A stretch of 64,000 bases of DNA, from assembly GCA_947179485.1 (NCBI GenBank), contig OX359245.1, forward strand, positions 21,811,067 to 21,875,066, in the 5' to 3' direction. Source of the stretch: Allacma fusca (taxonomy: Eukaryota > Arthropoda > Collembola > Symphypleona > Sminthuridae). How positions within the stretch are numbered: the stretch's first letter is position 1; each line of letters starts with the position of its first letter. Position numbers and translations under genes: made by a program. Positions 697-63,145 of this stretch are shown piece by piece. The notes beneath the pieces were generated by a model. The model saw nothing but the letters and a program-made list of their open reading frames with translations, was not told where the DNA came from and did not search any database.

Positions 697-1146
697 CAGT
701 GCTGCGCTCAAGTCAAGTAAATTCCAGACTTGACCATTAACTTGTCTTGACCACGAAAGTCAAGTATTTGATGGCGACTCATGTTCAGGTAATTACATGA
801 AATTTCATGGTCAAGTAATCATATACTTTTTGCGTCACTTGTACTAGATCATGTACAACCAAAACTACACTTGACTTGGCCATGACTTGAACCGAACGTA
901 TATATAAAATAAGAAAACGATGTATAGGAATTTTTAATGGCCCTTGTTATGGCAGGGAACCTTTTTACCTATACCAGAACATTATTTTGCCTACTCGAAA
1001 CATATCTCATTTCAAATGCTCACAATATATCTTTTTATTTATGCATATACTTAAAATATTAATTATCAAACCCAAATTCGCTCATATTTTTTGAAAACTG
1101 TAGTTAAATGGTGCAGGTTGTAAGGGCCAAGGCCAAATCGACCAAT

Positions 1147-1209
<63 letters not shown>

Positions 1210-1781
1210 TATATATAATATATATAAGATTGAACTCATTCAATATCTTTTGTTTTCACGAGTTCTGAAAATTGAAATAGTATTTAAGATAATTATTAAT
1301 AAGCTAAAAATGCAACAAAATTTTATCTCAAAAAGATTTATCAAAGAATCTTGCCCATTGAAGCAATTACTATTAACGCAAGCTGTTTCAACAGGTAACA
1401 AAAATTTGCATGCTGAGCATGAGTTGAAACTTATTGAAAAATACAACAGTAAAAAGTAGTGAAATATTATATTGAAAGTGTTTGCGCCGTGTCGTTGACA
1501 TGCACAACTTTATTTTATTTGAATCCGTACATGAAGTACTCATGGTACATGGTCAAGTTTTTACATTATCACACTTGACCATGAACATGACTTGGCACTC
1601 AAGCAATATTCTCCAGCCTGACCATAACGCTTACTTGACTTCAAGTACCATGGTCAAGTTTATACATTTCCTGACCATGACTTGAATGCTCAAGTTATAA
1701 TTAATTTTTAACTTGACCATGACCCGAACTTGACCATGACTTGAAATACTCATGGTCTACTTGAACTTGTGAGCAGCACTG
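697..1781. mobile_element. hAT-like element, word 'cttgaccatg/tcaagt'
   Basis: Termini are CAGTGCTGCGCTCAAG and its inverted match CTTGTGAGCAGCACTG. Both ends carry many copies of ACTTGACCATG/CAAGTCATGG. The flanking octamers CTCGCAAA and CTCGCTGC match at only 5 of 8 positions, so the duplication is decayed or the end is misplaced. Inside is a long AT microsatellite. No transposase is recognisable. Confidence 0.65.
1151..1228. repeat. (AT)n microsatellite
   Basis: More than 50 bp of uninterrupted AT followed by a less regular AT tract, inside the hAT-like element at 697-1781. It is likely length-variable between individuals. Confidence 0.97.
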
Positions 1782-2389
1782 CTCGCTGCACTGCTCCGTG
1801 GACACGATTTCTTTAAAGCTTGTGCACCGAATTCATTCTGAGCAGAGCTATCCCTCACAATAAAGTCTTTGCAATAAATCTCACAACGAATGAATTTTAG
1901 CTTAATTCAATGCGGTAGTTTCCTAGAATAATAATTTTAGTTTCTAAAAATGTTGTGAAAAATACGAGAAGGAATGAGAATATGCAATTACCATAACTGG
2001 AAAGAATAACATGCAGGAAAGAATGCCTCTTGTGACAATTCCTCAATAATGACATCTGCAGTACTGCTGCCCCCTGCCCTTCGCATTCATCCCAATCTGG
2101 GGTGTAGTGTATCTTTGCGAAGCGACGATATTTAGGTTGGCGTCAGCCCCCAACTCTTGTCTCTACGTCCGTGACCTCGTGGACGCGATAACTCAAAAGC
2201 TACCGGACCGAATTCATTGAACCTATTTCAGGACATTACCTGTTTTCACAGTTACAGTGATTAGTATTTGATTGAAATTAATCAGATTGCTTTTGAGAAA
2301 AAAATGCTAAAAATTTTTATTAAACGGAGGTAATCAATGACATTGCTACACTCTATGACCATAACAAACAACAGATATTGCCGTAGCAC

Positions 2390-3888
2390 CAGAGATGTCC
2401 ATTTGACATCACCTTCGTTCATCCTTCAGAAGGGGAACCGTTTCCAATTACCCGTTCCTTCATCGTTCAGTTAAATGAAGCCTTCTGAATATTTATCCTT
2501 CACCCTTCCTTCAATCAAATCCTACTATAATCCTTCCTTCAGCCTTCAAAAATATTTTCATATCTTTAAAATAATTCAAGCTGCTTACCGCTAAAAAAAC
2601 TAATAATTAGTTTACAATTATGTAATTACAATTATTGCAGAATATCAGTATGCGCTTAATGCTCAGTGAAGGAAATAGAGTGGCTACATACTCCGGTAGT
2701 GCTGTCCATGGGAACGGAAATTTGGTACCCATACCTGTTCCTGTCCCTGCACCCATTTTTTCAGGAACTAAAGTAATGGTCCTGTTCCTGTTCCCATAAA
2801 AATGGGTACCAATTCAAAGTTCCTGGACCTGTTCCTGCAGGAACAGGAATGTACCTGTTCCCAAAAGTACTTAAAGACTAGCAGAAAAGTACAACCTACA
2901 CATTTATGCCCCAGGTAACTCTATTTATGCATCGACTTAAAAAACCAAATATCAAATCGACTTTATTAAAAATAAATAACAGCGCACCATCTCCAATCCT
3001 TTAGCTACTCGAATTTAAATGAGAATTCAGTAACAGTCATTAAATTAATCATCGCAGCGCAAAGTACAGAAGTAACTGCAATTACCTAATACAAGTAGCA
3101 CTTTCAATACATTTTTGCTGAACAAACAAGGATAAGAGCACGCTGGAGTTTTCTGAGCTACAATTTTGGGTTTAAGTTCCACTGAGTTCCATTTTTACCA
3201 CGTGTTAATTAATTATTATTTATTATTTTGCTAAATAATAACGTGCGAAAGAGTGACTTATTTGACATGTTGCGACGTAATTTTAAAATAATATTTTATT
3301 TGTGAGGTATTTTTATATTATAAACTTCATGTGAATACCAGGTAGGTACATGTTTTGTTCCTGTTCCCAAACCCGCTTTTGTTCCCATATTTTAGGAACA
3401 ATTTTTATGTTCCCAAACGTTCCCAAAGTGTTTTGGGAACAAAATTTGTGTTCCCACACGCACCCATTCCTGTTCCTGTTCCCAAAAACCTGGGTGTCTC
3501 CTGTTCCCATGGACAGCACTATACTCCGGGTATCACACTTCCATTGTGAGATAAATGTTTCTAGAATAACATTAAGCATGCCCACCAGAAGCATGTTTTT
3601 CAGTTTAGTAACGGTGTACGTACATACGAATGTACATGAACTTTAGTTACGGAAGGATTTTGCCTAAAATATAGTAGATGGGATTGCAAGTTCCAACGGC
3701 GTTCGAAGGCTGTAAAATTAACATGTTCCTTCACATTCCATTATTTCTGCAAAGAGCATAGGCCTTCGTGCAGCCATCGTTTCCTTTCCAGCCTTCCTTC
3801 CGCTCCCTTCATAATTGCCGAAGCTAACACTTAATTCGTTCAAAGAAGCCTTCTTTGAAGGAAATCCTTCGAAAGATGGACACCTCTG
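2390..3888. mobile_element. hAT-like element, word 'gaaggctt' (family G)
   Basis: Ends CAGAGATGTCCATTTG and GATGGACACCTCTG, flanked by a perfect 8-bp duplication CGTAGCAC (2382-2389 and 3889-3896). Subterminal regions are full of CCTTC/GAAGG words in opposite orientation at the two ends. It is interrupted by another hAT element at 2697-3521. Related copies: 18203-18731, 32062-32656, 57607-59490. Confidence 0.88.
2697..3521. mobile_element. hAT-like element, word 'gttcctgttccc'
   Basis: 19-bp perfect terminal inverted repeats TAGTGCTGTCCATGGGAAC / GTTCCCATGGACAGCACTA and a perfect 8-bp duplication TACTCCGG (2689-2696, 3522-3529). Words GTTCCTGTTCCC and GGGAACA repeat next to both ends. The short ORFs over these repeats are artefacts. 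Nested inside the family-G element. Confidence 0.92.
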
Positions 3889-4570: not shown

Positions 4571-5750
4571 AACAAGCCACTATGTGCATCGCCCACAGTA
4601 AACTTTTTACAAGCTGTGTATGCAGCTGTATATCTGATAACATGATTTGACGATGATGAAAATTAAATCTTCGCTCTCCCTCTTAAAGGATAAAAACTCC
4701 TATTGGTTTCCGATTGAGAGGACCAGTTACCATAAAAGCTAACTACCCGGTTTATTTGTCGCATGTAATATGCATTAGGGCTCCTCATAATTTCAAGTAG
4801 TAATTGCAACTGTCAATTACAAATACGATTTCAATTCAACTTCAATTGATTGCAATCAGTAACCTGTAAATTGAAATCAATTTCAAATTCAAATAAAAGC
4901 AGCATTTTAGTCGTTGATTCAATTTCAATTACAAGTCAACCAGCAATTCTGGCATTATAACAGGACTTCCACCAACTCAATTTCAAATAGCTGCGTTGTC
5001 AATAATTGATAGTTGAAGTTGACAATTGACAACTAGTGAATGTTAAAGTAAGCATGCGCGAATGTGTAATCAAATCGTGGAGATCACACATTACACGACT
5101 TCCTGCAGCAAATGAAACCTCGCCGTGCTGCGTACTAATATAAAAATAAATAATGGAAAAACCACTACAATCCCAACATTGATGGGGAACGAATAAATGC
5201 CGAAACCGACGGTATTCAAATGAAGCGTAAATACGATTCCAAACATGAATTCGAGAGGTATCTTTCACAGCCCCGTACAAAATCTACAGATCTGAAAAAT
5301 GGTTTTATTATTTGGTGGAAGCTTCTGCATTTATAAATGAGTGAACATTGGTTTTTGTTTTCGTAAACGTTTTGTGGTTAAATACATCGTGTATTTATTT
5401 TGTCATACTGTAGGACAATCCTAATCTTTTTTTCATTAATTCATTAATTCATTCAGGTTTATTAACTTGTTAAGACAACACAGTTGTTTTTTTCATGCCT
5501 AACACTATTATCAACATAATAAGTCAAAATAGTAATTAAAAAATAGTACTAGTGTTAAAATTTTAATTAAATTAAATAAAATAATTTCCTACATGGCTAG
5601 AGTTTTTCTGGAAGCTTCTGCTACTGGTGTTCCTGTAGAATGTTTGCTTATCTACTAGCACTGCACAATCAGATATTTCTGAATTATGTGACTGAACCAA
5701 AAAATTATGATGCCTTTCGAAGCCAGCAATAGCTGGCTGTGCAGTGCTAT
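4571..5750 (+). mobile_element. Helitron family H2 copy, interrupted
   Basis: 4571-4785 matches the 5' part of the copy at 1-477, and 5640-5750 matches its 3' part, including the hairpin CCAGC-AATA-GCTGG and TGTGCAGTGCTA. The 855 bp between (beginning near TAGGGCTCCTC) have no match in the other copies and are rich in TCAATT/AATTG words, so another element probably inserted; I could not find its right end. Confidence 0.6.
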
Positions 5751-5760: not shown

Positions 5761-7444
5761 TAATGATCACTTCATGACTATAGAAATTGCGCGCGCTACT
5801 GTTAAAATAAGCGCGCAAGATTTAGGCATACAATAAGTCTCCACGACTGGCCTTGATTCGTAAGCCGTTTAGCCTCTGAACTCATACTACCACCTCTCCA
5901 AGTAATTGTCCCTGTGAAGCACAGGGTTGTTACTAGTTCTTATTATTACCGAGCATAGATGGGCGTTTTTCTCCCCCTCTCCCTCATTGTGCGAGGGATG
6001 GAATTTAACCTGCTCGCACTCTCCCTCGTCATCAATCGAGCAACACGTTACGGGTTGTCCTCGCCCTCGCTCTCGTGAGGGGCTACTTTTAAAAAACATC
6101 CCTCGCACTCATGAGGGCCCTCGTTATTTTATATTACACGTAAATAATCCCCCTACAATTTACTACAATACCTTTGCCTTCAAATAATTTTTTCGCTGAC
6201 ACTTGGTTAAAATATGACAACTTCAATATGTGTCGACATTCCCCCCAGTTCTGAACGTACGGAACTTTTGGATAGCTTACAAAGTTTATAAAATTTTCTA
6301 CAACCTAGCGTTCAAAACAAATTTTTAAAAAATTGTTGTTGAAATAAACTACTGTATTCAAAATAGTGCCCTTTATTGGTGCAGGTTATACACAGGTATT
6401 AGGGTACAGGTACATACTAGGTTTCGTGATTGACATAACTGTAAAAAGTATAAAAAACTTGAAAATTTTACAATGTTCTTTCGATTTTGTCCTGAAAATA
6501 ACGTGAAAAACAAGTTTAAAATTCTAATTCATCGGTACAAAGTGTATAACTTCCTTATATTTTAATTGTCGCGAAAATGGAAAACATTCAGTAGTCAAAC
6601 TACTATATTTTGTTATAAAAAACAATTTTGTTGGTCTATGACAACAATTCTTCATTATAATCGATTCAGTAGCTCAGAAAATGACTATTATTGATCAAAG
6701 CTGTTTTCTACGTCTTTGGTTAATAAAGATTAATGACAAATAGGTTCTATAACCTCATACCAGTAATATTCAATAGTAGGGTCTGAAAACAGCATTTATC
6801 AAATATAAAGCCCAGGTGCCCTTGTTTATAAATGATCATGTCTCCCCGACATCCTAAAATGAAATTTTTTTCTGGAGTTTAATATGAGAAATTTTAACCT
6901 AAACAAGAGGACCTTTTACTTTTAAAAATTAAAACTGGGATATTTGCACAGGGCCATAAACCAGGTACCTAAGACGGTATGAAGTTGGTCTTGCTACAGA
7001 AAAATATGTATATGTATGATTTTCGCATAACGATTAAGGTAAGAGAAGGTCACGAGGGCTTACATATGTACTCTGCCTCCCCCTCTTTCGTTCACATCCT
7101 ATTCATAGGTCCTCTCTCTCATGTTCATGAGGGCGCCTATAATCAACGTGTACTCGCCATCACCCTCGCAGTTTGTGAGGGCGAGGACGAGGGAGAGGGC
7201 GAGGCATCCCTCAATCCCTCGTGAGGGTGCCCATGTATGTTACCTAGCACTTTCTGTCCATTTATTTTAAACTCCGCGCGCTACCGCAAGATATAGGCAT
7301 ACAATAAGTCTCCACGACAGGTCTTGATTGAGCCGTTTAACTTTTTCCACGACAGGGCTTGATTGAGCCGTTTAACTTTTTATTTCTACACTCACACTAC
7401 CACCTCTACTCCAAGTAATTGTCTCTGTGAAACACAAGCACTAG
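5761..7444 (+). mobile_element. Helitron family H1 copies (tandem), interrupted by a hAT element
   Basis: A 3' end at 5936 shows hairpin CCCTGTGAAGCACAGGG, then TTGTTACTAG|T. A second, decayed 3' end at 7444 (TCTCTGTGAAACACAAGCACTAG|T) belongs to a second copy whose body starts just after 5936 and is split by the hAT element 5954-7239. Shared body sequence: GCGCGCTAC..TAGGCATACAATAAGTCTCCACGAC. Other copies are on the minus strand at 17141, 19430 and 55261. Confidence 0.7.
5954..7239. mobile_element. hAT-like element, word 'gagggcgag'
   Basis: Ends CATAGATGGGC and GCCCATGTATG, with octamers TTACCGAG (5946-5953) and TTACCTAG (7240-7247) matching at 7 of 8. Both flanks inside are packed with CCCTCGCTCTC/GAGGGCGAGG words. 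The target is Helitron H1 body; copies at 20430, 55430 and 60630 show the uninterrupted target. Confidence 0.8.
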
Positions 7445-8740
7445 TAATAATTAAAAGGCTTTAACCAAACAGTGACACAGTTGTTATTTTAAAAAACAAG
7501 CTCCGTAGCGGCTTGTTTTCTACACTTGTGCCGACGTTCAATATTTGTCGAGACGTTCGTCCAAGTGTTTGACTGTTTCATTATCCCACCAGAATTTCAC
7601 TACGAAATGTTTAGAATTTTTGCTGTTTTGTAATCTCTATTTCTTTAAAATGAGACCTTAGCTAACCACAGTCAGCCCTACGAGATGGCATACATAAAGC
7701 TTGACATTCACATCCACCGATAGTAATAACTTTACAGCGATAGAAAAACTGGTCCGTCGTTTCTATATGATATTATTATAATTATTCGTCTACATTCCTG
7801 TTACCAGAATTGGCCAAAAAAAATTATTTAAGCTCCTGGTATGGTGTTGAACACATTTGCGTTGTCAGTTTTGACTTAAACACAGTATTTCAGAAATAAC
7901 CTGAGAGGACACTTTTGTCTTCAACACGGGACGTCACTTATGGAAATCCTACACTATGTTACATGCCTGATCGCTACTCCTAGTCCTAGATACGACATTT
8001 TAGTCAAAACTTGTTTCACTCTTTTGGATTTCATGATGGTTTCCGAAAACAGTTTTTTTCTCGAAAATTTCAACACCAGTTGACATAAATATATTTTTTA
8101 TAAACACATTTTTTTGGTAATTTCCTATCGGCACAATTTGTACTGTGGGATCACCAGTTTCCGATTATTTCGACAACACAAAATGTTGAAATGTTGATAA
8201 AAATCGGCAAAGAATACTCAGCCCAAATTTTGACTAGGACTTCGAAATTTTTTTGACACGATTTTAATTTTTAGAGCCACTAAACATCTATTTAATTATT
8301 CGTTATTGACCGAAATGCGACATCCAAGTGAACATTCATTTGAAACAGAAGCCATACACTGAGAAATGGTTGAAAATTTGATATGTCCCGAATCTTTCAG
8401 CATTATATGTACTTATCAAAACTAGTGTTAGTTTACGAATTACGAAGAGTTTAGTCTTAAAAAAATGTTTTCTTTATGGTTATGTACTTGTGAAAATCTT
8501 TCAATAAAAAGTTTTGGGTATTATCGTCTTGCAAGGAAGTTTTAAGTGGTTACAATAAATGTATTTGCGCTAATCCAAGGACATACAGTAAACATTGATA
8601 TGTGACAGCTACTAAGGTTATAACAACAATAGCTTTGCCGCCAAGTAAGACGAAAGAATATATGCGAAGTGACTGATTTGGTTAGGATGAGCTTTAAACA
8701 GACAGTTGGATTGATAGTGCTATTTCTGTTGTCATTACAG
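7445..8740. other. non-coding stretch upstream of the first recognised exon
   Basis: No exon, repeat or structure recognised. An in-frame ATG at 8669 makes the exon at 8741 look longer, but the extra residues come from the acceptor's pyrimidine tract. Confidence 0.6.
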
Positions 8741-9012
8741 ATTAGTGATGATGAGCGGATGTCACTCACGACAGCCGTATCAGATGATGAGCCCGGAGAT
8801 GGGACAAATTCACCGAAAGGGTCCCGAAAGCCCGCGGCTTCCTTCAATTGCACGGGAGCGGTTCGGAAAGCAGGGTTTTTGAGCGTGAAAAAATGGCTGC
8901 TAAGGAAACGTCACCAAGTGGAGCTCGCCAGGCGGAGGGGTTGGAAAGGATATTGGGTCTGCCTAAAGGGGACCACGCTTCTCTTTTATCCCTGCGATGC
9001 ACGTGAGACACG
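8741..9012 (+). CDS. sif: sif/TIAM-like Rac GEF, exon a (start of N-terminal PH domain)
   Basis: First recognisable exon of a still life/TIAM-family Rac exchange factor, which in flies acts at synaptic terminals and in vertebrates activates Rac1 at the membrane. The acceptor is a pyrimidine-rich tract ending TTACAG before ATT AGT GAT GAT; the donor is CG|gtacga, leaving phase 2. The exon encodes an acidic stretch ([17 protein letters not shown]) and then the first strands of a PH domain, with the hallmark [20 protein letters not shown] and [16 protein letters not shown]. These strongly match insect SIF. An earlier GT (gca c|gtgaga) would break the frame with the next exon, so 9012 was preferred. 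No upstream exon was found; the N-terminal part of the protein must lie before the window or in undetected exons. Confidence 0.93.
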
Positions 9013-9250
9013 GTACGAACACTTCCGGAATACATTTTATACTCTTTATAAATCTTATAGCCCAGTATAATCTTGCTAAGAATGATTCGCTCCACCCTGC
9101 TTTCCATATTAGTACTGCATCAGTACCTTGAGTGATTTGTACTTATAAGGATCCAGTGTACTTGGACCCTGTTTCTGATAGATGGTTTACAGCAAAGATC
9201 AAATTATCTGGCATCCATTATTATAATTGCATTGACCTTGTTTCTGCAAA

Positions 9251-9390: not shown

Positions 9391-10152
9391 TGTATCCTGG
9401 ATTCTCATTATTAATATGTGAAACATTAGTTGGATTCATCTTCTAGACAAAATGGAATTTTCACCAGTAATGAATAACGAAATAAGACTAGTACTAGTGA
9501 TTAACATTGATGCTCACACTCCTCTACTTTTCCGTAGTGGTAATGGAATAGTGGTAAAGTGTAGAGTATTTCTCAAAAGTACATATATTAAGTAGTTATT
9601 GGTAGAGTAGGACCGCAATGAGGTATTTTCTGCTAGGAGTAGTGGTAGGTAGAGGAAGCGGATTCCTGTACTTATTAAGATAACGCATTGTAGCTCCGTC
9701 AAATTATTACAGTGGCAATAGAGTAGGGGTATTGGCATCAGTATTTCATACATAACTAGTGCTAACCTAACCATTACTTCGACAAGTGCATGCGTAGTAT
9801 AATTGTAAAGTAATCATACTGGTACCCCCGGATTCTATTTGTTCTGGCTCTGAGTCTACCAGCATCACCGGAATTTATGAGCATTTCACACATCGCAATG
9901 CATTCGTAAAAATAAACGTCCCAGTAGCTTGTATCTTTGCTGTGGTCCTCGCATTAGGTTATTAGGTATCGCTTGAAATTACTTAAAACATTTATTAAAA
10001 ACTACTTTCAAAATTTGAACATTTTTTTGCATCTTGCGTTAGCGAAGTGTAGAGTAGTGGGTGGCGAATATAATGTTTTTTAAAGTAGCTGTTTGGTAGT
10101 GGTTAGGTAGGCGTCAACAAAAGTACTGGTAGTGGTAGTGGGTAGTGCTGTG

Positions 10153-12057
10153 TAGTGGTCGGACCAATTCAGTTTAAATTGCAATTTTACAATTCAGTTC
10201 AGTTCAATTCAAGGATTTTTCAATTCAATTCGACCGTTTACTGAACCGAATAATTCAATTAACCCGTTGAATCGAATTGAATTGTTTTCTTTGAATTCCA
10301 ATTCAAAACAATTTCAGGCTGAATCAAAACCGATATTGTAAGGAAAAGTCTAGCACCATCTCTGTGTCAATAAAACCACCTTAAAATGTGCTAATATTTG
10401 TAGAGTGGCGTCAGCCCCATTATAAGATGTGTTGTCCGTGGATACTTGGGACTGTTTGTCCCGACGTTTTCCTCTAAACCAATTTTGTTCAAACTTTTTG
10501 TGAACATTCTTTAGGCCACTCTCTTGGCGGAGTTCTTTATTGGTTGAAATCGTAATGCGTGTTCGTACATAAAAAAATGAGAAACGACAAACGGTTCCAC
10601 CGATTTCAATCGAATTTTTTTACACTTACCAGTCAGTACTACTAGCTTAATTTCAAAAATTATCACAAATGTTTGTTTTCGAAATTTTGCATTTTTTAAA
10701 TGAGCTCAACATAATCCTTTATTATTATTGAGCACTTCTGTTGATTTAAACCTTCGCGCGTTTGTAGTACAATTCAAACCTTCGCGGCTTATTTCACGAA
10801 TTCAAACCCTCCCGGCTGATTTACTATACAGCCAAGCAAGTCGGTGGTATATACAACAAGCCGAGAAGCACAGCGGGCTGAAAGCTGAGACTCTGTCGCA
10901 GTGGAGAGGTTTTTCAGCTCGCTCAGCTCGCTGTTCTTCTCGGCATATACCAACTGCTTGCAGCATACTGGAAGCTCGCAATATTACGCCATTTTAGATT
11001 ATCACTTAACAGCGCTAACCATAATTATTATAAACATTAATCATCAAATTTGGATTAAATTAAGACTGGTAGTGATAAAAACTACGTTCGGTTACAGTAC
11101 TGAATAATTTGATAAGAGGAGAATTTTAATGACTGAACTTAGTTCACATTAGTGTGGGATTCTTATTAGGAAGAATAATTACAAGCCTTAGCATCCACAG
11201 TTTTGATCTTTATATCCATAAAAATATCATTAGGATGTAAAATGGATTTGTAGGAACCATGGACTTTAGTAACTATAGCAAGTTAAATGTGTTGCGCTAA
11301 TATGAAATCCTTTCATTTTTTCATTTTAAATAATCAGTGCGTCCAGTGTCTGAGGCTTCAGTTACAATATTGCGGTACAACGGATCTATATACGAATTAT
11401 AATAACATAAAAAATCATATTTGATCAGCACGTTGTGCTGATCCACTAAGGGGTGAAGCACCATACAGTGATGCAACAGCAAGGTTTAATAACGATGTTG
11501 GTATTAAATTGATCAAGGGATTAGTTAAATTCCACGTGTATAGTCAATATTGAGTTTGGGAGAAAACTTTAGTGGGCCGGAAGCTGTTGTCCCATAATAT
11601 TTTGATGATGAATTGCCAACTACCTATATGAACCGAATTGTTAGTCTTACAGTTAACACTTCACGTCTTATATGAGAATACTTTGCCTGGCGAAGCGGGA
11701 TATCAATATTAAGCCTTCTTGACAGACCTTGATACGAGATCTATTGCCATTTACACTTATTATTTACACTATTTATTTACACAAGTAAATGCTCCTGTGC
11801 GAAGCACGGGGCTTTTACTAGTAGCATATAAAGGGTAAGGAGAGATGGCTTTGTCTGACGCGCCACCATAGCCACCTTTGCAGTATTTAAACATGCCGGG
11901 CGAACCAAATGGTTTACAATTCAGTTCAGTTCATAGAGTGAACTGAATTGAATTGTTTTTTACTGAACCGAATTGAAACCCAAATATTAATCCAGTTCAG
12001 TATTCGAACTGGATTGAATTGTAAATTTTGAATTGAATTGAATTGTTCCCACCACTG
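10153..12057. mobile_element. hAT-like element, word 'aattcagttcaattc' (family N), copy 1
   Basis: Ends TAGTGGTCGGACCAATT and AATTGTTCCCACCACTG, perfect 8-bp duplication GTGCTGTG (10145-10152, 12058-12065). The left 0.56 kb and right 0.24 kb are nearly identical to the copy at 44330-46048, while the middles differ. Words of AATTGAATTG/AATTCAGTTC border both ends. A Helitron H1-type 3' end lies inside (to 11821). Confidence 0.93.
11640..11821 (+). mobile_element. Helitron 3' segment (H1-like)
   Basis: It ends with hairpin CCTGTGCGAAGCACGGG, then GCTTTTACTAG|T. The preceding 180 bp (TATGAGAATACTTTGCCTGG and CTTGACAGACCTTGATACG) match, in reverse, the copy beginning at 19430. The 5' end was not located. 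Confidence 0.65.
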
Positions 12058-12201
12058 GTGCTGTGTGTAAATATAAATGTTGTAGTTAGAGGTAGCGATT
12101 TTCACGGTCAAACCTGAATTTTGTAGTAGTAACGGCACGTATAACTGGCACGTGCGTATTTTAGAGTAGTGGGAATTCGGATGTGCATCAATGGTGATTA
12201 A

Positions 12202-16733: not shown

Positions 16734-17229
16734 GAAACACCACTACATATTTTAAATGTTTGAAACTGCCAAATAGTGGAATACAACTAAGGAAAACTAA
16801 TTTGGAAGATTACAATTTACATACTTTATTACTCGAAGTAACGGCAGCCGTTACACATCGAAAATACATTTGATGAATATCAGGCATTAGGTAAATTATC
16901 CCAACAAAACCTTAGTCAAGCACTCACTCCAAATTCGGGCCAATATGATCAGATCCATTAAAATAAGCATTTCGGAAACACAACATGTATCTAATTGTGA
17001 GTGAGTCTCCAAGTCTAGTCTCTTGGTTTCGAACGAATTCGTTTTAAAATTTGGTGAAACGATTTAAAAAATAAAATCAATTCAATCTACTAGTTACTGG
17101 CCAATACACATTACACAGTACATCGCTCTTACATAGTAAACTAGTAAAAGCCCTGTGATTCACCGGGACAATTACTTGGAGAGGTGTTAGTGAGAGCAGA
17201 GGAGTGGAAAATACATGAAATTTACTATT

Positions 17230-24463: not shown

Positions 24464-24470
24464 TGGTTGT

Positions 24471-26895: not shown

Positions 26896-26903
26896 GTGTA
26901 CAT

Positions 26904-47775: not shown

Positions 47776-48370
47776 CATCACACAAGTTTAAGCGGGTGAC
47801 AAAGGATATGAAATAACCTCTGCATTCATATTTAAAATATTTAGTTAGCTACAGTTAACAGCCGCTCTTCCAGCCGATTTACTGTGTTACTATTTTTACA
47901 AAAAATAACGAAAAGCCATCAGAGAGTAGTTAGTTTAGTAAGGACTCTTCGATAACCAAATTGTTTTAGTAGAGATCTCTTCCCAACCAAACAACTGTGA
48001 GACCTATCTTTTCCATAAGAAGGAATCCTGGAGCCCATGAAATTTCTTGTGTTGGTTCCTATACACACCAGAAGGCCCATGTGTTGGTGCTTCGATTGAT
48101 GCGTTGAGGTAACGAAGAAAATTTAGTAAAATAAACAAACGCGTTGCCAGGTCCGGCGCCCGAACTTCTGATAGGTCATATAGATAATAATATTTGATTT
48201 TGCAAGCACAACATGATGCACTTGAATATTTGATATCGCTAAACTCTTGTTTACAAAAAGGGGTTAGGGCAAAGTGAGCAGTCCAACACTATATTAAAGT
48301 AAATCTGTAGTAAATGAAATTTGATGTTTATATTTAAAGTATATTATTATTATTATTTAAACTGTTTCAG
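47776..48370. other. intron k-l, 3' part
   Basis: Nothing recognised besides an ATT-rich tract before the acceptor. Confidence 0.6.
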
Positions 48371-48659
48371 GCTATTTTAAATAACGTCGCCTCGGCCTTC
48401 CTGAGTTTCGCAGATCACTTCAAACTTTATTCCTCCTTCTGCGCCTCGCACTCCAAAGCTCAGAAACTGCTGCATCCAATCGAAGGGAATCAGTCTCTGC
48501 AGCAATTCCTCGCCGCCCGGAATCCTCGGATGCAGCACTCCAATACACTTGAATCTTACCTCATTAAGCCCATACAACGAATCCTCAAGTATCCGCTTCT
48601 TCTCCAACAACTTCGGAACCTCTGCGACACAAATACCGATGAATACAGGCATCTATGTG
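48371..48659 (+). CDS. sif: sif/TIAM-like Rac GEF, exon l (core of DH domain)
   Basis: Acceptor TGTTTCAG|GCT, donor TGT G|gtacgt (phase 1). It encodes [20 protein letters not shown], then [36 protein letters not shown] and [20 protein letters not shown]. The [15 protein letters not shown] helix is the most conserved surface of Dbl-family exchange factors and contacts the GTPase. The Asp codon at its end is completed by exon m across a 6-kb intron. Confidence 0.96.
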
Positions 48660-50824: not shown

Positions 50825-52097
50825 CAGTGCTGCGGACAAGTTCAAGTAATACTTGAGTTTTCAAGTCAAGTTCAAGTTCGGGTCAGGTTCAAGTAGGTAA
50901 ATTTTTTTACTTGAATCTTTCAGGTCAAGTTCAAGTACGTACTCGGCTTGACCATGACATTCTAAGACAAGTCAGGTTCAAGTACAAGTAAGAGAAATTT
51001 ACTTGAATCTCAAGTCAAGTTCAGGGTCAAGTAATGGAAAGAAAAAACTTGACCATGAACTTGAGATTACATGGTCAAGTTCAAGTAATTTTAGATTGCG
51101 CATGCCATAAAGGACGGAAGCAATTTCAAAATCACAATCCAATTTCATGTCGTGTCCAGGGTATATTATTTGCACATGCCATCTATCAAAGGACAAAATT
51201 CAAAATCAGTCCTTTTTATGAAGGTCTTGTTTACCAGACGTTGCTCATTGTTAGTTGTTGCAGTGGCCTCTCCATGAAATAAAGGAATTATCTTGATAAT
51301 TCATATTGTTGCTTAGAATTATTTGTTTCAACTTGGTTAAATAAATTCCAGTATAAAATGAGCTTGGATGGCTCTTTACAAAAAGCGTTTAATAAATAAG
51401 TAAATACTAGTTTATTAAATTGTAAATTAAGAGTACTGGTAATGCTCAAATAGGTACTTTTATGTAAATATATGTACATATATAAACATTAAATAAAACT
51501 TGACACTATGTAAAACTCGTCAGATATACAGTAAAAGTCCGTTATAAGGGCTCAGCTTATAAGGAAATATCGACATCAGGGAAGCATTTGTTTGACCCGA
51601 ACTTTCATTTACGCAATGCTTTAGACGTTTTGTATAAGGGAAATTCCTTTATAAATTGTATAGTCTCTTATATCGAACTTTTACTGTATTCAGTACACGC
51701 TCAAAGTTGTCCTCGAATGGTTTTAAATAAAAAGTAGTAGTAAAATTGTTTTCTGAATGCGTTTTGATTTTCAGCCTGAAAGAAATAATTTGCCGATGCA
51801 AGTTCGACAAGTTATTGTGGCCATGTTTTATTTTTTGTGATACTTAACTTGAATTATCAAGTTCAAGTCGCGTTCAAGTCATGGTCAAGTCAAGTTCAAG
51901 TCAAGTTTAGAATTTTAGCTACTTGTTCAAGTTCGGGTCTTACAAAAGTTACTTGATTACTTGAAGTTGACAAGTCAAGTAATTACACGAACGCGAGTTA
52001 TCAAGTTCGGGTTGTGTCTTGAAAATTACTTGAAGTTTCGTGGTCAAGTCAAGTTCATGGTCAAGTATTGAAATTACTTGACCCGATCGCAGCACTG
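50825..52097. mobile_element. hAT-like element, word 'caagttcaagt'
   Basis: Ends CAGTGCTGCGGACAAGTTCA and CCCGATCGCAGCACTG, perfect 8-bp duplication GTTGGGTG (50817-50824, 52098-52105). CAAGTTCAAGT/ACTTGAA words at both sides. A 158-bp pogo-like MITE is nested at 51529-51686. Related ends at 697-1781 and 33244. Confidence 0.94.
51529..51686. mobile_element. pogo-like MITE, 158 bp
   Basis: CAGTAAAAGTCCGTTATAAG and CTTATATCGAACTTTTACTG with TA on both sides. Confidence 0.85.
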
Positions 52098-54082: not shown

Positions 54083-54470
54083 TAGTGATGCCAATGGTCT
54101 GGTCTGATCCAGATTTTATGAAACTGGTCTGGTCCAGTTTTTCGGACCACACCAGACCATAGACCATGGTTCGGACCATGGTCCAGAATACTATTGAGAG
54201 CAATTAAATAATCAACTTGTATCCAGTCAAATTCTTCTTTTATTCCCAGAAATGACATTTTTAGTATGTTAAATTGGATTTCGTTAACTCATACATTTTT
54301 AATTTGCTTACTTTTGAGACCATGATCCTATGGTCTGGTCTGGTCTGGTCCTGAAGCTGGACCAATTGTATCTGTTCTGGTTCAAGTGTTGGATCAGACC
54401 GGACCAGACCATACAAATCTGGGACCAGACCGGACCAGACCAATAACGGACTAGACCATTGGCATCCCTA
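54083..54470. mobile_element. hAT-like element, word 'ggtctggtctggtc', 388 bp
   Basis: Ends TAGTGATGCCAATGGTCT and AGACCATTGGCATCCCTA, perfect 8-bp duplication GTTTGTAC (54075-54082, 54471-54478). GGTCTGGTC/GACCAGACC words fill both flanks. Confidence 0.95.
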
Positions 54471-54666
54471 GTTTGTACATTCGTGAACAATTTCAAAGGA
54501 TGTAATGGTTTTTAAAATTCATTTTCAACAGGTTTATCATTTAAAGATTCGCAGCCTAAGGACTCTAAATATATAATGCATGGAAATTTTAGTTGTATTC
54601 AACACGTGTGTATATTGAAATGTAAAACAGTTTCTTACGTTTACTCGTGTTATACCAATTACACAG

Positions 54667-54962
54667 ATGCTCTTCAATGTATGGAGCGTGTGGCGGAGCA
54701 TATCAATGAGATGCAGAGGATTCACGAGGAGTATGGTGCCATCTTCGAGCATCTCTTTAGACAGCACCAAAAGCTTGCAAAGATTCAGATCGACTTGAGT
54801 CCAGGAGACTTGCTCCACTATGGAGGAGTGGAGTGGCTCAATATTGCTGAATTCCTGGGGAAGATCAAAAAAGGTCTGGAGCTCCATGCCATGTGCTTTG
54901 TTTTCCGGACGGCTGTTGTCTTCCTTTGCAAGGAACGTCTCCGCCATAAAAAGAAGCTGATG
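54667..54962 (+). CDS. sif: sif/TIAM-like Rac GEF, exon m (DH end and C-terminal PH start)
   Basis: Acceptor TTACACAG|AT, donor ATG|gtaaac, 296 nt. It encodes [20 protein letters not shown] and [16 protein letters not shown] (last DH helices), then the DH-PH junction [19 protein letters not shown] and PH strands [40 protein letters not shown]-type proteins share this junction. A 388-bp hAT element ends about 200 nt upstream. Confidence 0.96.
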
Positions 54963-55260
54963 GTAAACCCTTAACACCCACATAAAGATGTTTTATTTTA
55001 GGGATTATTTTTGAGGAGGTTTGTTTATTGGTTTCATTGAATATTTAACTAGCAAGTGATTGTATGGAGTAATTGCTTTTAATTGTGTAGATTGTTTTAG
55101 AAATTTTTTGAAGTTTAATATAATGTTAGACGTATAATTGTCATTATCACTGAAATGTGTGCTAATTTTAATTCAGTTCTCAATACGGTGTAAAAGTAAA
55201 AGTATGAAAAGCGCAGTTTTAAAACTGTACAACTTGCAAGCATGAGTTTTATAGACAGAA

Positions 55261-55464: not shown

Positions 55465-56054
55465 ACGTTCCGCATTCTGATGTATCAATTCAAGTTTTAA
55501 TAAATCTTCTGCAACGAGAGCAAGTAAAGTTTCAGTTCATTCAGTCGATTTAATTATTTCGAATTCTCAAAACGAATTAAATCGAATCATGAATGTTTCA
55601 AATGATTCATTGATGAAAATAAAAATATATGATTTAAAAAATCAGCTAATGTCAATAACGCTTGCACAGCCCTGTTCATGTACACTTAAGAAATGAAAGA
55701 CGACACCTTTATAGTTTACAAGCGAAACCTATAGTAAATTTGAGCTAGAATTATTACAGAATTAAAACTTTTAGCAAATATTCTGATGACCAACATGTAG
55801 CATTTGAATTTGTACCCCCTCATAGACCTAACAGACTTACAATTAGAATAATCTGTAAGGTTTGTGAAATGTAAAACAAATTATGAACACATATTGTGGT
55901 TACATCTAATGGTAGTTAGCAAGATGAATGTTGAGGCAAGGTAGTCTTAGTTTTCTAATTAACGGCTAAGGAGCCGTACAAGGCGTAATTTGCTGTGTTT
56001 TTTAAACGTTGATGGTTTTTACCACGTTCGGCATGTTTTTTTTTATTTTTACAG
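55465..56054. other. intron m-n, 3' part
   Basis: No recognised feature apart from the acceptor tract at 56035-56054. Confidence 0.6.
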
Positions 56055-56502
56055 GGTTCAAGTGGAAAAGTGGCGGACAAAAGTGAGGTGGAAATCATAA
56101 GATACCAGGTACTGATTCCGGTTTCGGAAGTTCAAGTTAGGCAGATCGAGCCAGTGAATAAGTCTGCGGAGGCTCCAGATCCAGCAAACTCCTCTAACTT
56201 TTCCTGGGAACTGGTCCACCTGCGAAATCAGACCCAGCGCCGGTCGGAGAAAATTTATTTACTCTCAAATTCCACGACGGAGTTCCGGAACGCTTTTCTC
56301 AGGAACATACGACAAATTATACGGGAAAGTGTTCGTAATATGAGCTTACCCCCGAGGCTCACCGACGGCTCCTCAGATGGTGGCGAGATGCTGTCCCCAG
56401 GATCCGCTCCGACCAAAGGAATCTCTCATTATGCCACCCCAGAAGGGCTGGAGAGCGTGCAGAAACCTTCGGGCTGTTATATTTCTCAAGCCCAAACTTT
56501 AG
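56055..56502 (+). CDS. sif: sif/TIAM-like Rac GEF, exon n (C-terminal PH domain)
   Basis: Acceptor TTTTTACAG|GGT, donor TTA G|gtaacg (phase 1), 448 nt. It encodes the C-terminal PH domain: EVEIIRYQVLIPVSEVQVRQ, then NFSWELVHLRNQTQRRSEKI, YLLSNSTTEFRNAFLRNIRQ and IIRESVRNMSLP as the closing helix. A Ser/Gly-rich tail follows (RLTDGSSDGGEMLSPGSAP). In Dbl proteins this PH domain supports exchange activity and lipid binding. Confidence 0.95.
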
Positions 56503-57598
56503 GTAACGATCAAATTTGTATTTAAGAATTCCCTGTAACATAGTAACGTTGCCAGTATTTCCGTGTTTCGATCAGTAATGTTTACAGCATTTTCCTGGTT
56601 CGATTAATAAAGTATGAGCTTAAATAACCGTCCCGACGGTTCGGGCCATATCACCATGGTTTGCAGGGGGAAACAGCGCTCAGGTTTTAAATTCTAATTC
56701 CTAGGTATTTTCCTTCTTCAACTTAAGTTTTCCAATGTTAAATCCCCTAAAAAATGTTCATTTTCGAAAGTCAATGACTTAAGATAAATAATGATGAAGG
56801 AGACAACTAGTGATCCTTGTATCATTCCTTTTCGAATTATCGTTATCATTCGGTCAAAAAAAACCGTAACGATATTGCACAGATTGCCTTTAAAATCAGT
56901 GGAATATTTGTATATATGTTCAGTTAAAAATCTAAAATTTTAAAACTCGTTGTGTCAAAATGTGAAGCAAGAACAAGAACGTTTCGAGGATTTTAGACAT
57001 TAGTGTGTTATCCTGAGGAGACTGAGCAAGGAAAAATATTGGTGTGGACTGTGTTAAAACGGATGCATCATGTCGGCACTCGGCACGTTTTATGAAGTGA
57101 GGGAATTAGGTTATCAATTGCAAATCGTGTCGGTGAGGTCATGCAATTGACTTGTAGCGTGGTGGATAGTTTATCAAATATTGAAATAGTTGCATGATTT
57201 TTATATATAATTGTACAATCTTTTATTTATGAAACTGATTTACCATTTTGGAGAAATCTTGCCTCACTTTGTTCGAACGTCCTGTATCTAAATTATTTGA
57301 CTAAGGAACCTTTTGTTGTGGATGTTTCAAAGCCGTTAAAGTTTACTAAATTTAAACATCATTTTTGTTTTTCGTAAAAAATAGTCAAGCGAAAAATTGG
57401 AAATTGTCTTTTCAATTGTTCCACAAAATCCTGACTTTGCCCACTTTGCCTCTGTTTCCTGAGCTTGGTGTCACGAGTTTTATAGTAATGGAAGTGGGAC
57501 AAATTTTGAAAACCGTGGAATAAAATTTGCTACAAAATGTGAGATATTATTTCATCTCCTCATCCATGATCTAAGGGAAGAAAAGGGTATAAAACACC
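56503..57598. other. intron n-o, 5' part
   Basis: No recognised gene or repeat. Confidence 0.6.
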
Positions 57599-57606
57599 CT
57601 ACAAAC

Positions 57607-59490
57607 CAGACATGTCCAGCCTTGGAAGGCTAGCCTTCAATGAAGGCTTTACTGAAGGCGGAAGATCAATTTTCCAGAGAGTTGAGAGTTGGGAAGGGAA
57701 GCTGCAGGTTGGCTGAATTAATTCCGAAAGTCTGAATAAAGGCTTCCTAATATTAACAGAAAACGGTAGGTGAAGGAAGGACGTCTGTAAAGAAGCCCAC
57801 TTCTATTTAAAAGGCTTCGCGCGTACAATTAACGACAATAGATTGCCACAAATAGAACAATGCGATTCCTACTGAAAACACGGCAAATGAATGCATGAAG
57901 TTCATATTTACGTATATATGCACAATAAGAAACCGTAACCGCTTATTGATATACTTATGGGCATGGAATTTATGCTTCGGACGAACTTGAGTACGTTTGT
58001 TTAATGAAAAATACCTGGGAATCATGCAATTTTGAATTGTATTGCTGATTTTAAGATGTTTGACCTGCAAAAGGGTTGTTTAAATGCATTGGTATGGTTA
58101 GGGTATGTCGATTTGAAAATGCCCGGCATTTTGGGCAACTCGCACGTCCAAAATGCCAGGGCATTTTGGGCATTTTCATTTCAGGGCGAGGGCGGCATAA
58201 TAGGGCATATTGGGCAAGGGCATTTTGGGCATTTTCATCGAGGACAAATTGGGCATTTTGGGCAGAATCGTGGAATATAATAGAACAATCTATACAATTT
58301 GACAATGAATTTGAAAATTTCTTTGTAATTTTGGAGAAAAAGCTTTCGAAATTTTCTTGAAAATTTTATTCTGTCATTATTTTGACGAAGTTAATTCAAC
58401 TGGTAATGAAATACGTTTGGATACCATAGGTCATATTGAACATTACCATTTGTGAAACACCTGTACAGTACACGATACGGCTATAAATTAAAATATTCTA
58501 GTAACTATTTTTCCAAACTGCAGACGATGCAAAATGATCTTCCACCATCCTGGGAATATTCACATACCCATATGAATGTATTACTGTGATCAGAAATGTC
58601 TTTTCGGTAAAAATTAGAACCCATACGGTAATTGTATTACACCATAAAACTAGAAACAACAATATTTGGGGGACCCGTATAGAGGATGTATATTGGTTTC
58701 TACTCGAGCCATTTTTGGCTGATCGTTGCAAACTGCAGACTATAGTGATGTAGAACAAAATGAGTATAAAATTCAGCTACATCAGCCATTTAAATTTTGA
58801 CTGATCCCTTACCATCAGATTTTTACTTTAGGAGTTCGTACTTCAAAAGAAAATAGTACTTCTGCCCGCCCGTCAGTGACGCATATGTAAATTTACTTCA
58901 TATTATTGTTTACATAGAAATTTATTTTCATAGGAGTGATAATTGATATCATCTCATGTCAATGAAATTAAATTGATTTGACTGTTTTTGCCATTACAAT
59001 ATACGCGAAGAAGCGAATAACCAGACATTCACATTTATAAGTTTTCCTTGGCTGCGCTGTCATGCATTTGGATGGATATTCTGAATATATGCTAGTAATC
59101 AAATTTTGGTGCCATGAAAATGCCCAAAATGCCCAACTTGTCCTGCCCAAAATGCCCAAAATCCGGGCATTTTCAAAAGCTGCCCACATGCCCAGTTTTT
59201 GGGCATGTGGGCAGGCATTTTGGGCATTTTCAGCTGGGCGGGCAAATACTGCAGGGCATTTTCAATCGACATACCCTAGGTATGGTATTTTGTGTTATGA
59301 AGGCTGAGTGGAAACGAAGGCTGATTTTTTTTGAAGGCTGAAGGCTGAAGGCATTAAATTAATAAGCTAAACAAGGCTGAGGGAAGGTATTATATTTTAA
59401 AGGCTTCATTTAAAAGAAGGATGAAGGAATTTTTTACAAAAAATTGCCTTCGAAGGTTTGAAGAAAGGTTATTTCGTTTGAACAACTCTG
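57607..59490. mobile_element. hAT-like element, family G, copy 4, interrupted
   Basis: Ends CAGACATGTCCAGCC and GAACAACTCTG; octamers CTACAAAC and ATACAAAC match at 7 of 8. It is colinear with 32062-32656, and is split by another hAT element at 58099-59278. Confidence 0.85.
58099..59278. mobile_element. hAT-like element, word 'gggcattttgggcatttt'
   Basis: Ends TAGGGTATGTCGATTTGAAA and TTTTCAATCGACATACCCTA, perfect 8-bp duplication GGTATGGT (58091-58098, 59279-59286). GGGCATTTT/AAAATGCCC words dominate both flanks. The related uninterrupted site is at about 32455-32480. Confidence 0.95.
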
Positions 59491-60765: not shown

Positions 60766-60830
60766 GGGTGTACATACTCAAAAAAATGTTTCACTTTGGG
60801 AATGGCTGTATTGAAAAAAAAACAGACCCA
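60766..60830. mobile_element. terminal fragment of the GGGTCTG element, reversed
   Basis: TGTACATACTCA..AATGGCTGTATTG..AAAAACAGACCC corresponds, reversed, to the first 60 bp of the element at 42325. It is followed by ACCCGGGTA words that also occur, inverted, at 40735-40830. Confidence 0.7.
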
Positions 60831-61229
60831 GCAACCAACTGGTATGGGTATTACTCGGGTAAACGGGTATGGGGACTACCCGGGTACCTATTTAGTGCAC
60901 TCGAACAATTTAGGGTACTACATGGGTAATGGGTACACATCGGTCAGCTAAAATTTCGGGTACGGTTACGGGTGTTACTGAAAAAGTCTGTCTAACTAGT
61001 TACTGAAAAGAAACCACAGAATTACTGAGCAATATCTCCAAATAACTATGGAATTCTGAATCCAATTTATAATGGAATCAGAATTACAAATATGGACACG
61101 AATATAATACTCGAAGCATGTTGGTGTGTGTCATTAGATTTTTGACTTGAATTTAATTTCCCTTTCGGACTTCATAAATATCAGTCTTTTAGAACTTGGG
61201 GATCAGTGTTTTTCGTTGATTTTATGTAG

Positions 61230-61598
61230 GTCGTAAAAAACCTCCAAAACCACCCCAACGTCATTCAGCGGGTAACTTGGAAGTGGGCTTGCAAAGACTC
61301 AGATCTCAGGACAGTACTGATAGCTGTGGCTCGGGATTCCGCTCAAGAAGCAAGACTATGAGTGATGCTAATAAGGAGGAAGGTGCTAAGATGGAAGGGG
61401 AGGAGGGCGAAGTGCGTAAAACCATTAAGAGCACTACTATGCCGAGGATGAAAGGGTCACTGGGTCAAACACCGAATCATCTCACCCTTAGCACCACTTC
61501 CACTCTGTCCGTCGGCAGCACAGGGTCTGCTGCAAAACTGATTCAATCATCAGCAACGCCTGCACGCTACACTGTCGCAGCTGCTCCACCGGAGCCAA
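61230..61598 (+). CDS. sif: sif/TIAM-like Rac GEF, exon o (Ser/Thr-rich C-terminal region)
   Basis: Acceptor TTATGTAG|GT completes a Gly codon, giving [20 protein letters not shown], then a low-complexity Ser/Thr/Glu-rich tail ([20 protein letters not shown] and later [20 protein letters not shown]). The QRHSAGN motif is conserved after the PH domain of insect SIF. The proline-rich KKPPKPPQR could bind an SH3 domain (inference). The donor is read as CCA A|gtaatt at 61599; no further exon is recognisable before 64000, so the protein continues beyond the window. Confidence 0.88.
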
Positions 61599-62321
61599 GT
61601 AATTTAGCGCCACATGTATTTTTTTTAACTATTTAACGGGTTTCCTAATCCTACTGTTCGCGGATGTTTCACAAGGACGCAGGGTTGAAAATTGAAATCG
61701 GAATCGAAAAAGACTCCGAAAATTTAAAGTATTAGAATCAGAATCGGAATTTAAAATAATGTAAAATTAGGTATTGGAATTATAATCAGAATTGGAAAGT
61801 AAGTATCGGTATTGGTATTAGAATTTAATGATATTCCGATGAATTCCGATTCCGTTTCTGACACTGCATTATACAGCCATAAAGAGCCCTTTACGATCTT
61901 TTACATAGAACCTTTACCTTCTATCCTTGACACTTGTACATGGTTTTTTTGCACAAATAATTCTTTATCGTAGTAATAAAAATGAAAAGAAAGGCAGAAT
62001 CATTTGTTCATGATTACTACGACTACAATAGAAATTTAGAATTACAAAAAAAATTAAATGTATGTTCGAACGTATTCTGTGGAACAACTATGGACCGCAC
62101 AAGGGTCAAATGAATTAATTTGTTCAATTGGTTGAATGATTCAGAGTTTTCGGAAATTCTCCAGCAAGTAACATTTGTAATCTTGAGCATTCCAGTAACT
62201 TAGGTTATACCCAACACGGACAGGACGAAATCTGTGCTGACTTGCATATGTTTGACACAGAAATGTTGTGGGTTCGTACGTACACTGACATAAGTGGGAG
62301 GTGGCTTGCACAAGTTCTCAC
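61599..62321. other. region after the last recognised exon
   Basis: 61680-61860 is rich in GGAATCGGAATT words, also found at 63530-63690; probably remnants of one hAT-like family, but no target duplication was found. Otherwise nothing recognised. Confidence 0.5.
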
Positions 62322-62329
62322 ATAGATAT

Positions 62330-63145
62330 TAGGCATTAGCATATTGGTCATTTTTTAAATATCGTTAATATCGTTATCGTTCATCCTAAAAATGACGATA
62401 ACGATATCGAAGGACGATATAACGATATTTTTTTCAATTTGAAACGCATCGGTCAATAATATAAATTGCAAAAATAATCGACCAACACTACTGAGGTATT
62501 GACTATTAATTAAATACTCACCTTATTACTACTGTTCATAACAAAAATTGCCACAAAAATGCATTGTTCGGAAAATTATCAAAGAACTTTTCTTTTGACT
62601 TATCCCAATCGGAACACCGAGACTACAGTTGGTATTAATTGAATGAGAACTGGTACTGACAATGAGGATATACGTAAGGCAAACCAAGTATATTTTAACC
62701 CCACTGACAGCATAATTGGTATTAATTTTTCTGAAACTGGTGAGAACAATAAGGAATCACGCAGGTTCCACCAAGTATGTTTTGGTTCCAGCAGAAACAA
62801 ACTTGGTATTAATTACATAAAAACTGGTTCTAACAATGAGCAAATCCCGTAAGTTACACCTGTGTTTTGACGTATGTTTTTACATACGTATGTTTTGAGG
62901 AAACCAGAAATATACATGGTATTATTATGAGCTGAATGACATGATGTTTTCAATTAGTTAATACACATTAAAATGTTGGGGGTGAATCATTATTTGGGGA
63001 ATTGAACCACGTTACGGTTATTACGATATGAAAACTGACCGATATATCGTTCAAAGTTTACGAGAATTATCGTTCATTTATCGTTTCGAAAAATGTACGA
63101 TATGGACGATAATATCGTATGGCTATATCGGAATGCCAATGCCTA
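62330..63145. mobile_element. hAT-like element, word 'aacgatatcg'
   Basis: Ends TAGGCATTAGCATATTGG and CGGAATGCCAATGCCTA, perfect 8-bp duplication ATAGATAT (62322-62329, 63146-63153). CGTTATCG/CGATAACGATATCG words at both flanks. The middle has a loose GGTATTAATT..AACTGG repeat giving spurious ORFs. Confidence 0.9.

Follow-up and report, generated by a model that had tools for sequence, protein, structure and literature searches.

Paired elements with similar termini in the window

The window analyzed here is a 64,000-base stretch (C1:21811067-21875066) of the 393-Mb assembly of Allacma fusca, and contains a series of hAT-like transposable elements, in which the region just inside each terminus carries many copies of a short word that is nearly private to the family. 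Element ends were matched by the 8-bp target duplication and by terminal inverted repeats, words were counted against resampled sequence, and transposase genes and element copies elsewhere in the same genome were examined after the window. Twenty elements, denoted here by their first base, were paired via their terminal repeats, which agree at 9–12 of 12 positions; the flanking duplication is perfect (8/8) in 17 of them, 7/8 in 5954 and 17197, and 5/8 in 697. The paired elements span 20,861 of the 64,000 window bases. A strict scan (8/8 duplication, terminal repeat of at least 10/12, length 250–9000 bp) recovered 14 pairs from the window and none from any of 20 first-order resampled windows. 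The five-base start pattern was drawn up from the termini at the coordinates given by a prior sequence-only reading of the window, and the identical pattern was run on the resamples.

The consensus of the 40 ends is YAGNG.TG..CA, i.e. a terminus of about 12 bp that is similar across all families. Y1 and A2, and partly bases 3 and 5, were search conditions; the bases free of the search pattern are likewise recurrent, with T7 in 34, A12 in 27 and C11 in 24 of the ends. Over 15 distinct insertion sites the duplications prefer T at the second position (12 sites) and A at the seventh (10 sites). Termini of hAT elements start with YARNG, and hAT duplications prefer nTnnnnAn. A post hoc observation concerns position 16, counted from the terminus: whereas positions 13–15 are mixed, this one holds G or T in 34 of the 36 ends of 18 window elements (all but 697 and 10153), and in 7 of 10 ends adjoining transposases.

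The sequence-only reading had named 17 element coordinates. Fourteen of these (2697, 9505, 10153, 16355, 18203, 25717, 26904, 34936, 37249, 46563, 50825, 54083, 58099 and 62330) begin an element with an 8/8 duplication and terminal repeats, whereas 5954 (7/8) and 697 (5/8, terminal repeat 10/12) have imperfect duplications and 19179 has no partner end; four further paired elements (2390-3888, 17197-19081, 27646-29293 and 44330-46048) had gone unnamed. No transposase gene belonging to these elements was recognized among the 15 window reading frames of at least 120 amino acids, none of which appears hAT-derived by eye, and the six that were domain-scanned gave no hAT domain. Non-autonomous elements are common in the hAT superfamily. 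A search of the window with Rfam gathering thresholds gave no match.

Subterminal arrays of family-specific words

The word of an element was taken as the commonest 6-mer in its outermost sequence, up to 200 bp per end, with 200 first-order resamples as control. This 6-mer occurs 5–24 times in the two ends and lies above all 200 resamples in 19 of the 20 elements. In the case of 9505 it is reached by 8 of the 200 resamples because the nested element 10153 occupies its right end. The words are 7- to 286-fold denser in the outer ends than in the rest of the window. Per 100 bp, the density of an element's own word is 1.8 at 0–20 bp inside the terminus, 4.4 at 20–60 bp, 2.0 at 150–200 bp, 0.3 at 300–500 bp and 0.55 at 500–800 bp, and is 0.04 in the 200 bp outside the elements. 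The claim that a family word is repeated inside the termini is thus borne out, with the word concentrated in the outer 200 bp or so and falling off with distance.

By our grouping the 20 elements fall into 16 words and the word-by-element matrix is near diagonal, in agreement with the earlier claim of a different word in each family. Words are shared by sister elements (697/50825, 2390/18203, 10153/44330 and 25717/27646); the other off-diagonal signals come from the disturbed 9505 and from the AT-rich AAAATG of 58099, which occurs 2–5 times in some other ends. The arrays at opposite ends had also been described as usually inverted relative to each other, and this does not hold: among 19 elements (9505 excluded) the arrangement is direct in 8, inverted in 1 and mixed in 10. 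The longest direct run common to both ends is 10–12 bp in 11 of the 19, and therefore most elements share the word, and not its arrangement, between their ends.

Individual elements and their genomic copies

In the brackets that follow, the duplication is 8/8 unless stated otherwise, and fractions of 12 refer to the terminal repeat. Three elements contain another one. The GAAGG-bearing 2390-3888 (CGTAGCAC, 11/12) encloses 2697-3521 with 16 copies of GGAACA (TACTCCGG, 12/12); 9505-12193, whose word was read by eye as GTAGAGG/GTAGTGG (GTGATTAA, 11/12), encloses 10153-12057 with CAATTC and CAGTTC 16 and 7 times (GTGCTGTG, 9/12); and 17197-19081, with the word AAATAC and an internal 35-bp minisatellite (duplication 7/8, 11/12), encloses 18203-18731 with 16 copies of GAAGGC (ATTCCAAT, 12/12). 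At 25709-29301 three elements stand in a row with one and the same 8-mer, GTGTACAT, between neighbors, an arrangement that would result if newer elements had inserted into the target duplications of those already present: 25717-26895 (ATAGGC), 26904-27637 (GCCCGTGCCCG) and 27646-29293 (ATAGGC and GTAGGC, 9 and 6 times), each with GTGTACAT as its duplication and 10/12.

ACTTGA is common to the sister elements 697-1781 (ACTTGA/CAAGT, 16 copies over both 200-bp ends; duplication 5/8, 10/12) and 50825-52097 (ACTTGA/CAAGTTCAAGT, 24 copies; GTTGGGTG, 10/12). Two elements are short, namely 16355-16668 (word GGGACGGGAC; duplication CTCCGAAC, 11/12) and 54083-54470 (word GGTCTGGTC, with AGACCA 12 and GGACCA 9 times; duplication GTTTGTAC, 11/12). 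In 37249-38443 (GACTGA/CAGTCC; GTAAAATG, 12/12) GACTGA occurs 18 times, on one strand only at both ends, and 44330-46048 (19 copies of CAATTC; GTATTAAA, 10/12) has the sole clearly inverted pair of arrays. The remaining elements are 5954-7239 (word GAGGGCGAG; duplication 7/8, 10/12), 34936-35701 (GCGATA/ATATCGCC; duplication CTGGGGAC, 12/12), 46563-47767 (mixed word, GGTACA 15 and GGTTCA 10 times; ATAAAAAT, 10/12), 58099-59278 (word GGGCATTTT; duplication GGTATGGT, 12/12) and 62330-63145 (ACGATA/ATCGTTA, 14 copies of ACGATA; ATAGATAT, 11/12). For the AACCCG array at 19179-19460, whose limits are approximate, no partner end or duplication was found.

Additional word-rich arrays lie unpaired at 4731-5060, 20641-20890, 32031-32660, 33261-33510, 57601-57760 and 60821-61000. 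The window also contains minisatellites at 17228-17897 (35-bp unit), 23676-24064 (148 bp), 24179-24464 (about 35 bp) and 43384-43551 (84 bp), the third of which includes CAAGTTCA, a part of the 697/50825 word. The elements are interspersed with exons of a Tiam1-like gene (8633-56522), with a RhoGEF domain at 48338-48757 and the second PH domain of Tiam1 at 54516-54971 and 56013-56522; a PH match at 8633-9067 is below the cut-off, and two further scanned frames gave no match.

Copies elsewhere in the genome were sought with four queries, with 40 candidates scored for each and the window copy counted in. The end of 697 has at least 41 matches (40 of 560 candidates scored), 40 of these 41 covering at least query bases 1–179 of 204, and the end of 46563 has at least 40 (40 of 1393 scored), all spanning at least query bases 1–199 of 201 at 98–100% identity. 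The complete 54083 has at least 65 matches (40 of 1171 scored), which cover most of its 388 bases in one or two pieces, and 16355 at least 131 (40 of 1116 scored), many matching the right or the left array only. A majority lacking arrays was thus not found in the copies scored for these four families, although copies devoid of an array would be invisible to these queries. In some copies of 16355 the right-hand module is repeated at steps of about 80 bp, and hence one route of array growth is apparent.

Transposase-bearing relatives

The same genome has at least 150 matches to the hAT dimerization domain (PF05699; 150 of 860 candidates scored) and at least 35 to the BED domain (PF02892; 150 of 327 scored), and arrays of the same kind were found 3' of transposase domains and 5' of BED domains. 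As examples, the 305-amino-acid frame of the element at our loci L013/L070 matches PF05699 with E 1.9e-17, and the frame at L058 matches the BED domain with 27.9 bits against a cut-off of 20.6; the piece at L070 falls below this cut-off (15.7), and the domain scan gave no BED match for the piece at L116.

Three elements with transposase exons have a word common to both ends. The first, at 59.1 Mb on C10 (3722 bp, 8/8 duplication GCTGCGCC), starts with CATAGATG and has a GAGGGCGAG-type word like that of 5954, with CCCTCA 6 times at its 5' end and CGCTCA 5 and CCCTCA 4 times at its 3' end; L022 and L038 share both this start and this word with 5954. Those at 4.6 Mb on C12 (4900 bp, duplication 8/8 TACGGTAA, terminal repeat 9/12) and 15.5 Mb on C8 (5125 bp, duplication 8/8 GTCCTTAC, terminal repeat 11/12) carry words of the GTAGAG type (CTCTAC 10 and 5 times) and the GTAACG type (CGTTAC 8 and 6 times), respectively. 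Moreover, the terminus beside L033 is nearly identical to the right terminus of 18203, and that beside L013 is close to the right terminus of 9505. The 8-bp duplications, the similar termini and these relatives, with hAT dimerization and BED domains and like arrays, identify the window elements as hAT-like, in keeping with the sequence-only reading.

For comparative purposes, 70 dimerization-domain places with a 3' flank were collapsed at 85% identity to 45 groups. An array density threshold of 115 is passed by the flank of the first member in 31 groups; with three retained by hand below it, 34 groups result. The groups left under the threshold are L009, L019, L025, L028, L077, L089, L094, L100, L105, L110 and L113; a word is nonetheless visible to the eye at L028 (CAGGGA) and L105 (GAAGG), and others could represent host genes of hAT transposase origin. 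At L059/L073 (C5:37.0M), the two sides of a transposase from the GACTGA clade bear different arrays, GACTGA on the 3' side and ACCCGA on the 5' side, pointing to either a nested element or an exchanged end.

Word likeness and transposase relatedness

Across the 34 groups (561 pairs), the likeness of array 5-mer profiles correlates with that of the dimerization domains (Mantel r 0.33, P 0.0005), while the control, the flank before the array, gives r 0.12, P 0.14 (300 pairs). Word likeness tracks the transposase mainly above 50% domain identity. On the domain tree, with word labels assigned by hand and several groups unlabelled, kindred words fall into common clades: GAACT, GAATT, GAATA, GACTA, GACTT and GAGTA; AAGGC, TAGGC and GAAGG; CGGATA, CGGATC and CGGTT; GTAGAG, GTAGTGG and GTAACGG; and GAGGGCGAG and GAGTTCGAG. 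AACGTTA (L082) and CAGTATTGA (L102) fit their clades worse.

In the BED domain of Hermes, the contacts are made by S66, N67 and R70 (PMC10368747). We also matched BED contact residues to words over about nine families aligned by eye; the pairings (SNLIRHL/SNLMRHL with GA.T words, NFKKHL/NYKKHL with GTA words) are suggestive at most, and a code of this kind was not retained.

Mixed arrays and helical spacing

An array was called mixed if it has three or more copies of a one-letter variant of its main 6-mer, a count above that in all 30 resamples. By this definition 21 of 52 arrays (9505 and 17197 excluded) are mixed, some of which are owed to junctions of overlapping units. In eight links the minority word of one array is the majority word of another. 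Five of these links lie inside three small clades (L034 to L027; L086 to L098; L093 to L032 and L087, L096 to L111) and three run across clades (L096 to L097, L111 to L103, and L086 to L108, a case of suspected nesting). The links within clades would be the expected residue of gradual replacement in a redundant array, the direction of which we infer.

The spacing of identical 4-mers was studied in 45 families (16 window elements and 29 transposase arrays), leaving out 9505 and 17197, the sisters 10153 and 697, and the long-tandem L015, L078, L090, L102 and L112. Identical 4-mers favor distances of 5–6 and 10–12 bp and avoid 7–9 and 13–15 bp: 5–6 bp exceed 7–9 bp in 33 of 45 families (23 of 31 after clade collapse), and 10–12 bp exceed both 7–9 bp and 13–15 bp in 37 of 45 (25 of 31 in each case). 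As these lags were picked after viewing the pooled curve, 21 held-out arrays were examined, comprising 7 unpaired window arrays and 14 others, most of them 5' arrays and some from families already used. In these, 5–6 over 7–9 bp recurs in 18 of 21, 10–12 over 7–9 bp in 17, and 10–12 over 13–15 bp in only 14. At long lags the pooled data show a period of 5.15–5.2 bp, about half a helical turn (z 5.5 against block shuffles), which is absent from 56 control pieces. A universal long-range helical phase of 5.2 bp was considered and rejected, given that only 28 of 45 families are positive and that the peaks near 15–16 and 21 bp are weak; it is a tendency only. We read the preferred spacings as placing sites on set faces of the helix, which would suit cooperative binding of a multimer.

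A proposed two-module model for the element ends

Taken together, these observations suggest that the window elements are very probably non-autonomous hAT elements with two-module ends, whose arrays would be bound by the BED fingers of cognate transposases, with words diverging alongside the transposase. The first module would be the terminus of about 12 bp, alike in all families, that is recognized and cut by the catalytic core. The second would be the array of about 50–200 bp, composed of a family-specific word of 5–6 bp and bound by the cognate transposase through its N-terminal BED zinc fingers, so that the family word is probably the landing site of its own enzyme. Several protomers might bind the array cooperatively, aided by spacings close to a half and a full turn of the helix, and the word would determine which transposase mobilizes the element. 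As the array is redundant, a one-letter variant could coexist with the old word and later supplant it at both ends, and word divergence would proceed together with that of the transposase; co-divergence of the private arrays with their transposases appears likely. The sequence-only reading had already suggested a binding role, which we infer likewise, now with the word–transposase correlation, the helical spacing and the precedents of Ac, Herves and Hermes (PMC3260210, PMC3143072, PMC10368747) in its favor, as far as the portions of these accounts that we covered go.

Several observations weigh against this model. The correlation between word and transposase is moderate. In a version of the set in which three groups were switched by hand to another member because nesting was suspected, the array correlation stays at r 0.33, P 0.0005, and one also appears in the control (r 0.18, P 0.036). 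Below 55% identity, array and control are 0.246 (P 0.003) and 0.227 (P 0.018) in the hand-set version, and 0.244 (P 0.0015) and 0.140 (P 0.11) in the automatic one; the two are thus close in the former and less so in the latter, and it is mainly the more closely related pairs that carry the array signal. The array cosine exceeds 0.3 in 12 of 20 pairs at 60–85% identity and in 12 of 36 at 50–60%, a value that control flanks also pass at all identities because of a common AT-rich background, and hence the trend alone is informative. Eleven of the 45 transposase groups were left out of the 34-group set for want of a sufficient array, L010, L017 and L083 entered it despite sub-threshold arrays, and arrays of nested elements lie beside some transposases (L018, L023, L075 and probably L108). 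Comparison with solved structures was weak, with Hermes (6dww) at E 0.009 for one query and no hit at E 0.01 for L058. The 5.15–5.2-bp period is driven by a subset of families, the count of positives being not significant. Finally, for five of the 19 elements (2697, 10153, 37249, 44330 and 58099), no block shuffle among 20 reached the length of the direct run common to both ends.

This last point would also be expected if the arrays were neutral minisatellites, with slippage and segmental duplication amplifying any short word near an end regardless of function. The stepwise right-hand modules of 16355, the 35-bp unit present about 19 times in 17197, and the longer tandem units of L015, L090 and L102 are in line with such growth. 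Yet the word is common to both ends while most ends are not colinear copies, it is confined mainly to the outer 200 bp in many families, it correlates with the transposase, and its spacing favors 5–6 and 10–12 bp; we therefore regard neutral growth as improbable, and simple tandem repeats as insufficient for a full account given the end concentration and the mostly non-colinear ends. A regulatory role of the arrays for host or element, through host proteins acting at enhancer, silencing or replication sites instead of transposase binding, is more improbable still, because there is nearly one word per family, present at both ends and also in elements without a long reading frame, and because the word–transposase correlation is hard to reconcile with host factors.

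Somewhat less improbable than either, but still unlikely, is the runaway co-evolution that the sequence-only reading envisaged, in which selection for privacy against foreign transposases and parasitic non-autonomous copies splits words and BED fingers unusually fast. The 16 words in 64 kb, with more beside transposases, the relatives differing by one or a few letters (GTAGAG, GTAGTGG, GTAACGG; AAGGC, TAGGC) and the mixed arrays could be understood in this way. However, close transposases often retain the same or a one-letter-different word, as in the 60–85% identity pairs above, so that ordinary co-divergence fits; and the array length, which had been called extreme, is comparable to the terminal 200 bp of Ac and the 17 and 14 sites of Hermes in the parts of their descriptions at hand.

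Building on the two-module model, it is conceivable, though we put it forward tentatively, that this one genome amounts to a dictionary of BED-finger/word pairs, where dozens of hAT lineages coexist via private address words, with mixed arrays letting these change one letter at a time and in concert at both ends, and with half- and one-turn spacing serving cooperative assembly. If so, a BED recognition code would be readable from sequence alone, and word turnover would be visible in intermediate states. In the literature that we covered, hAT subterminal repeats have been studied one element at a time, whereas this genome offers dozens of transposase/word pairs, including relatives with words a few letters apart and arrays with two words. 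Two questions thereby become testable: how BED domains read DNA, and how a many-copy array and its protein change specificity without loss of function. The answers would further show the range of non-autonomous elements that a given transposase is able to mobilize.

Comparison with known hAT systems

Subterminal repeats are established features of several hAT elements. Hermes of the housefly has a BED domain that binds AAGT/AAGC cooperatively over a pair of sites, with 17 candidate sites in one end and 14 in the other, five within the first 55 bp of each (PMC10368747). The A. fusca elements resemble it in their short repeats, and the ACTTGA arrays of 697 and 50825 include AAGT; Hermes differs in its 4-bp site and the asymmetric arrangement of its ends, and a half- or one-turn spacing rule is not met in the part of its description consulted. 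In Herves of Anopheles, a CG/AATTCAT motif with one-letter variants lies at both ends and is sufficient for binding (PMC3143072), which parallels the single short motif with one-letter variants seen here. The variation of binding sites among hAT transposases has already been stated in the Herves study, which, in the portion covered, does not compare words along a transposase tree (PMC3143072). In the open-licence literature, as far as it was covered, we found no report of a set of words that, in a single genome, follows the tree of hAT transposases and also shows mixed intermediates and a common spacing.

Subterminal repeats of Tol2 and Tag1 are also bound or needed by their transposases (PMC3143072, PMC10368747). 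Ac of maize has subterminal AAACGG hexamers, to which the transposase binds cooperatively, and requires 200 bp of terminal sequence at each of its ends; Ac/Ds have 11-bp terminal repeats (PMC3260210). With their 8-bp duplications, multi-copy hexamer regions of about 200 bp and non-autonomous partners, Ac/Ds are much like the window elements (PMC3260210). As transposase-bound or -needed subterminal repeats are thus described for Ac, Herves, Hermes, Tol2 and Tag1, the window elements belong to a known kind. Ac/Ds, as described in the parts consulted, represent one word in one family, whereas in A. fusca many families coexist in one genome, nearly each with a word of its own.

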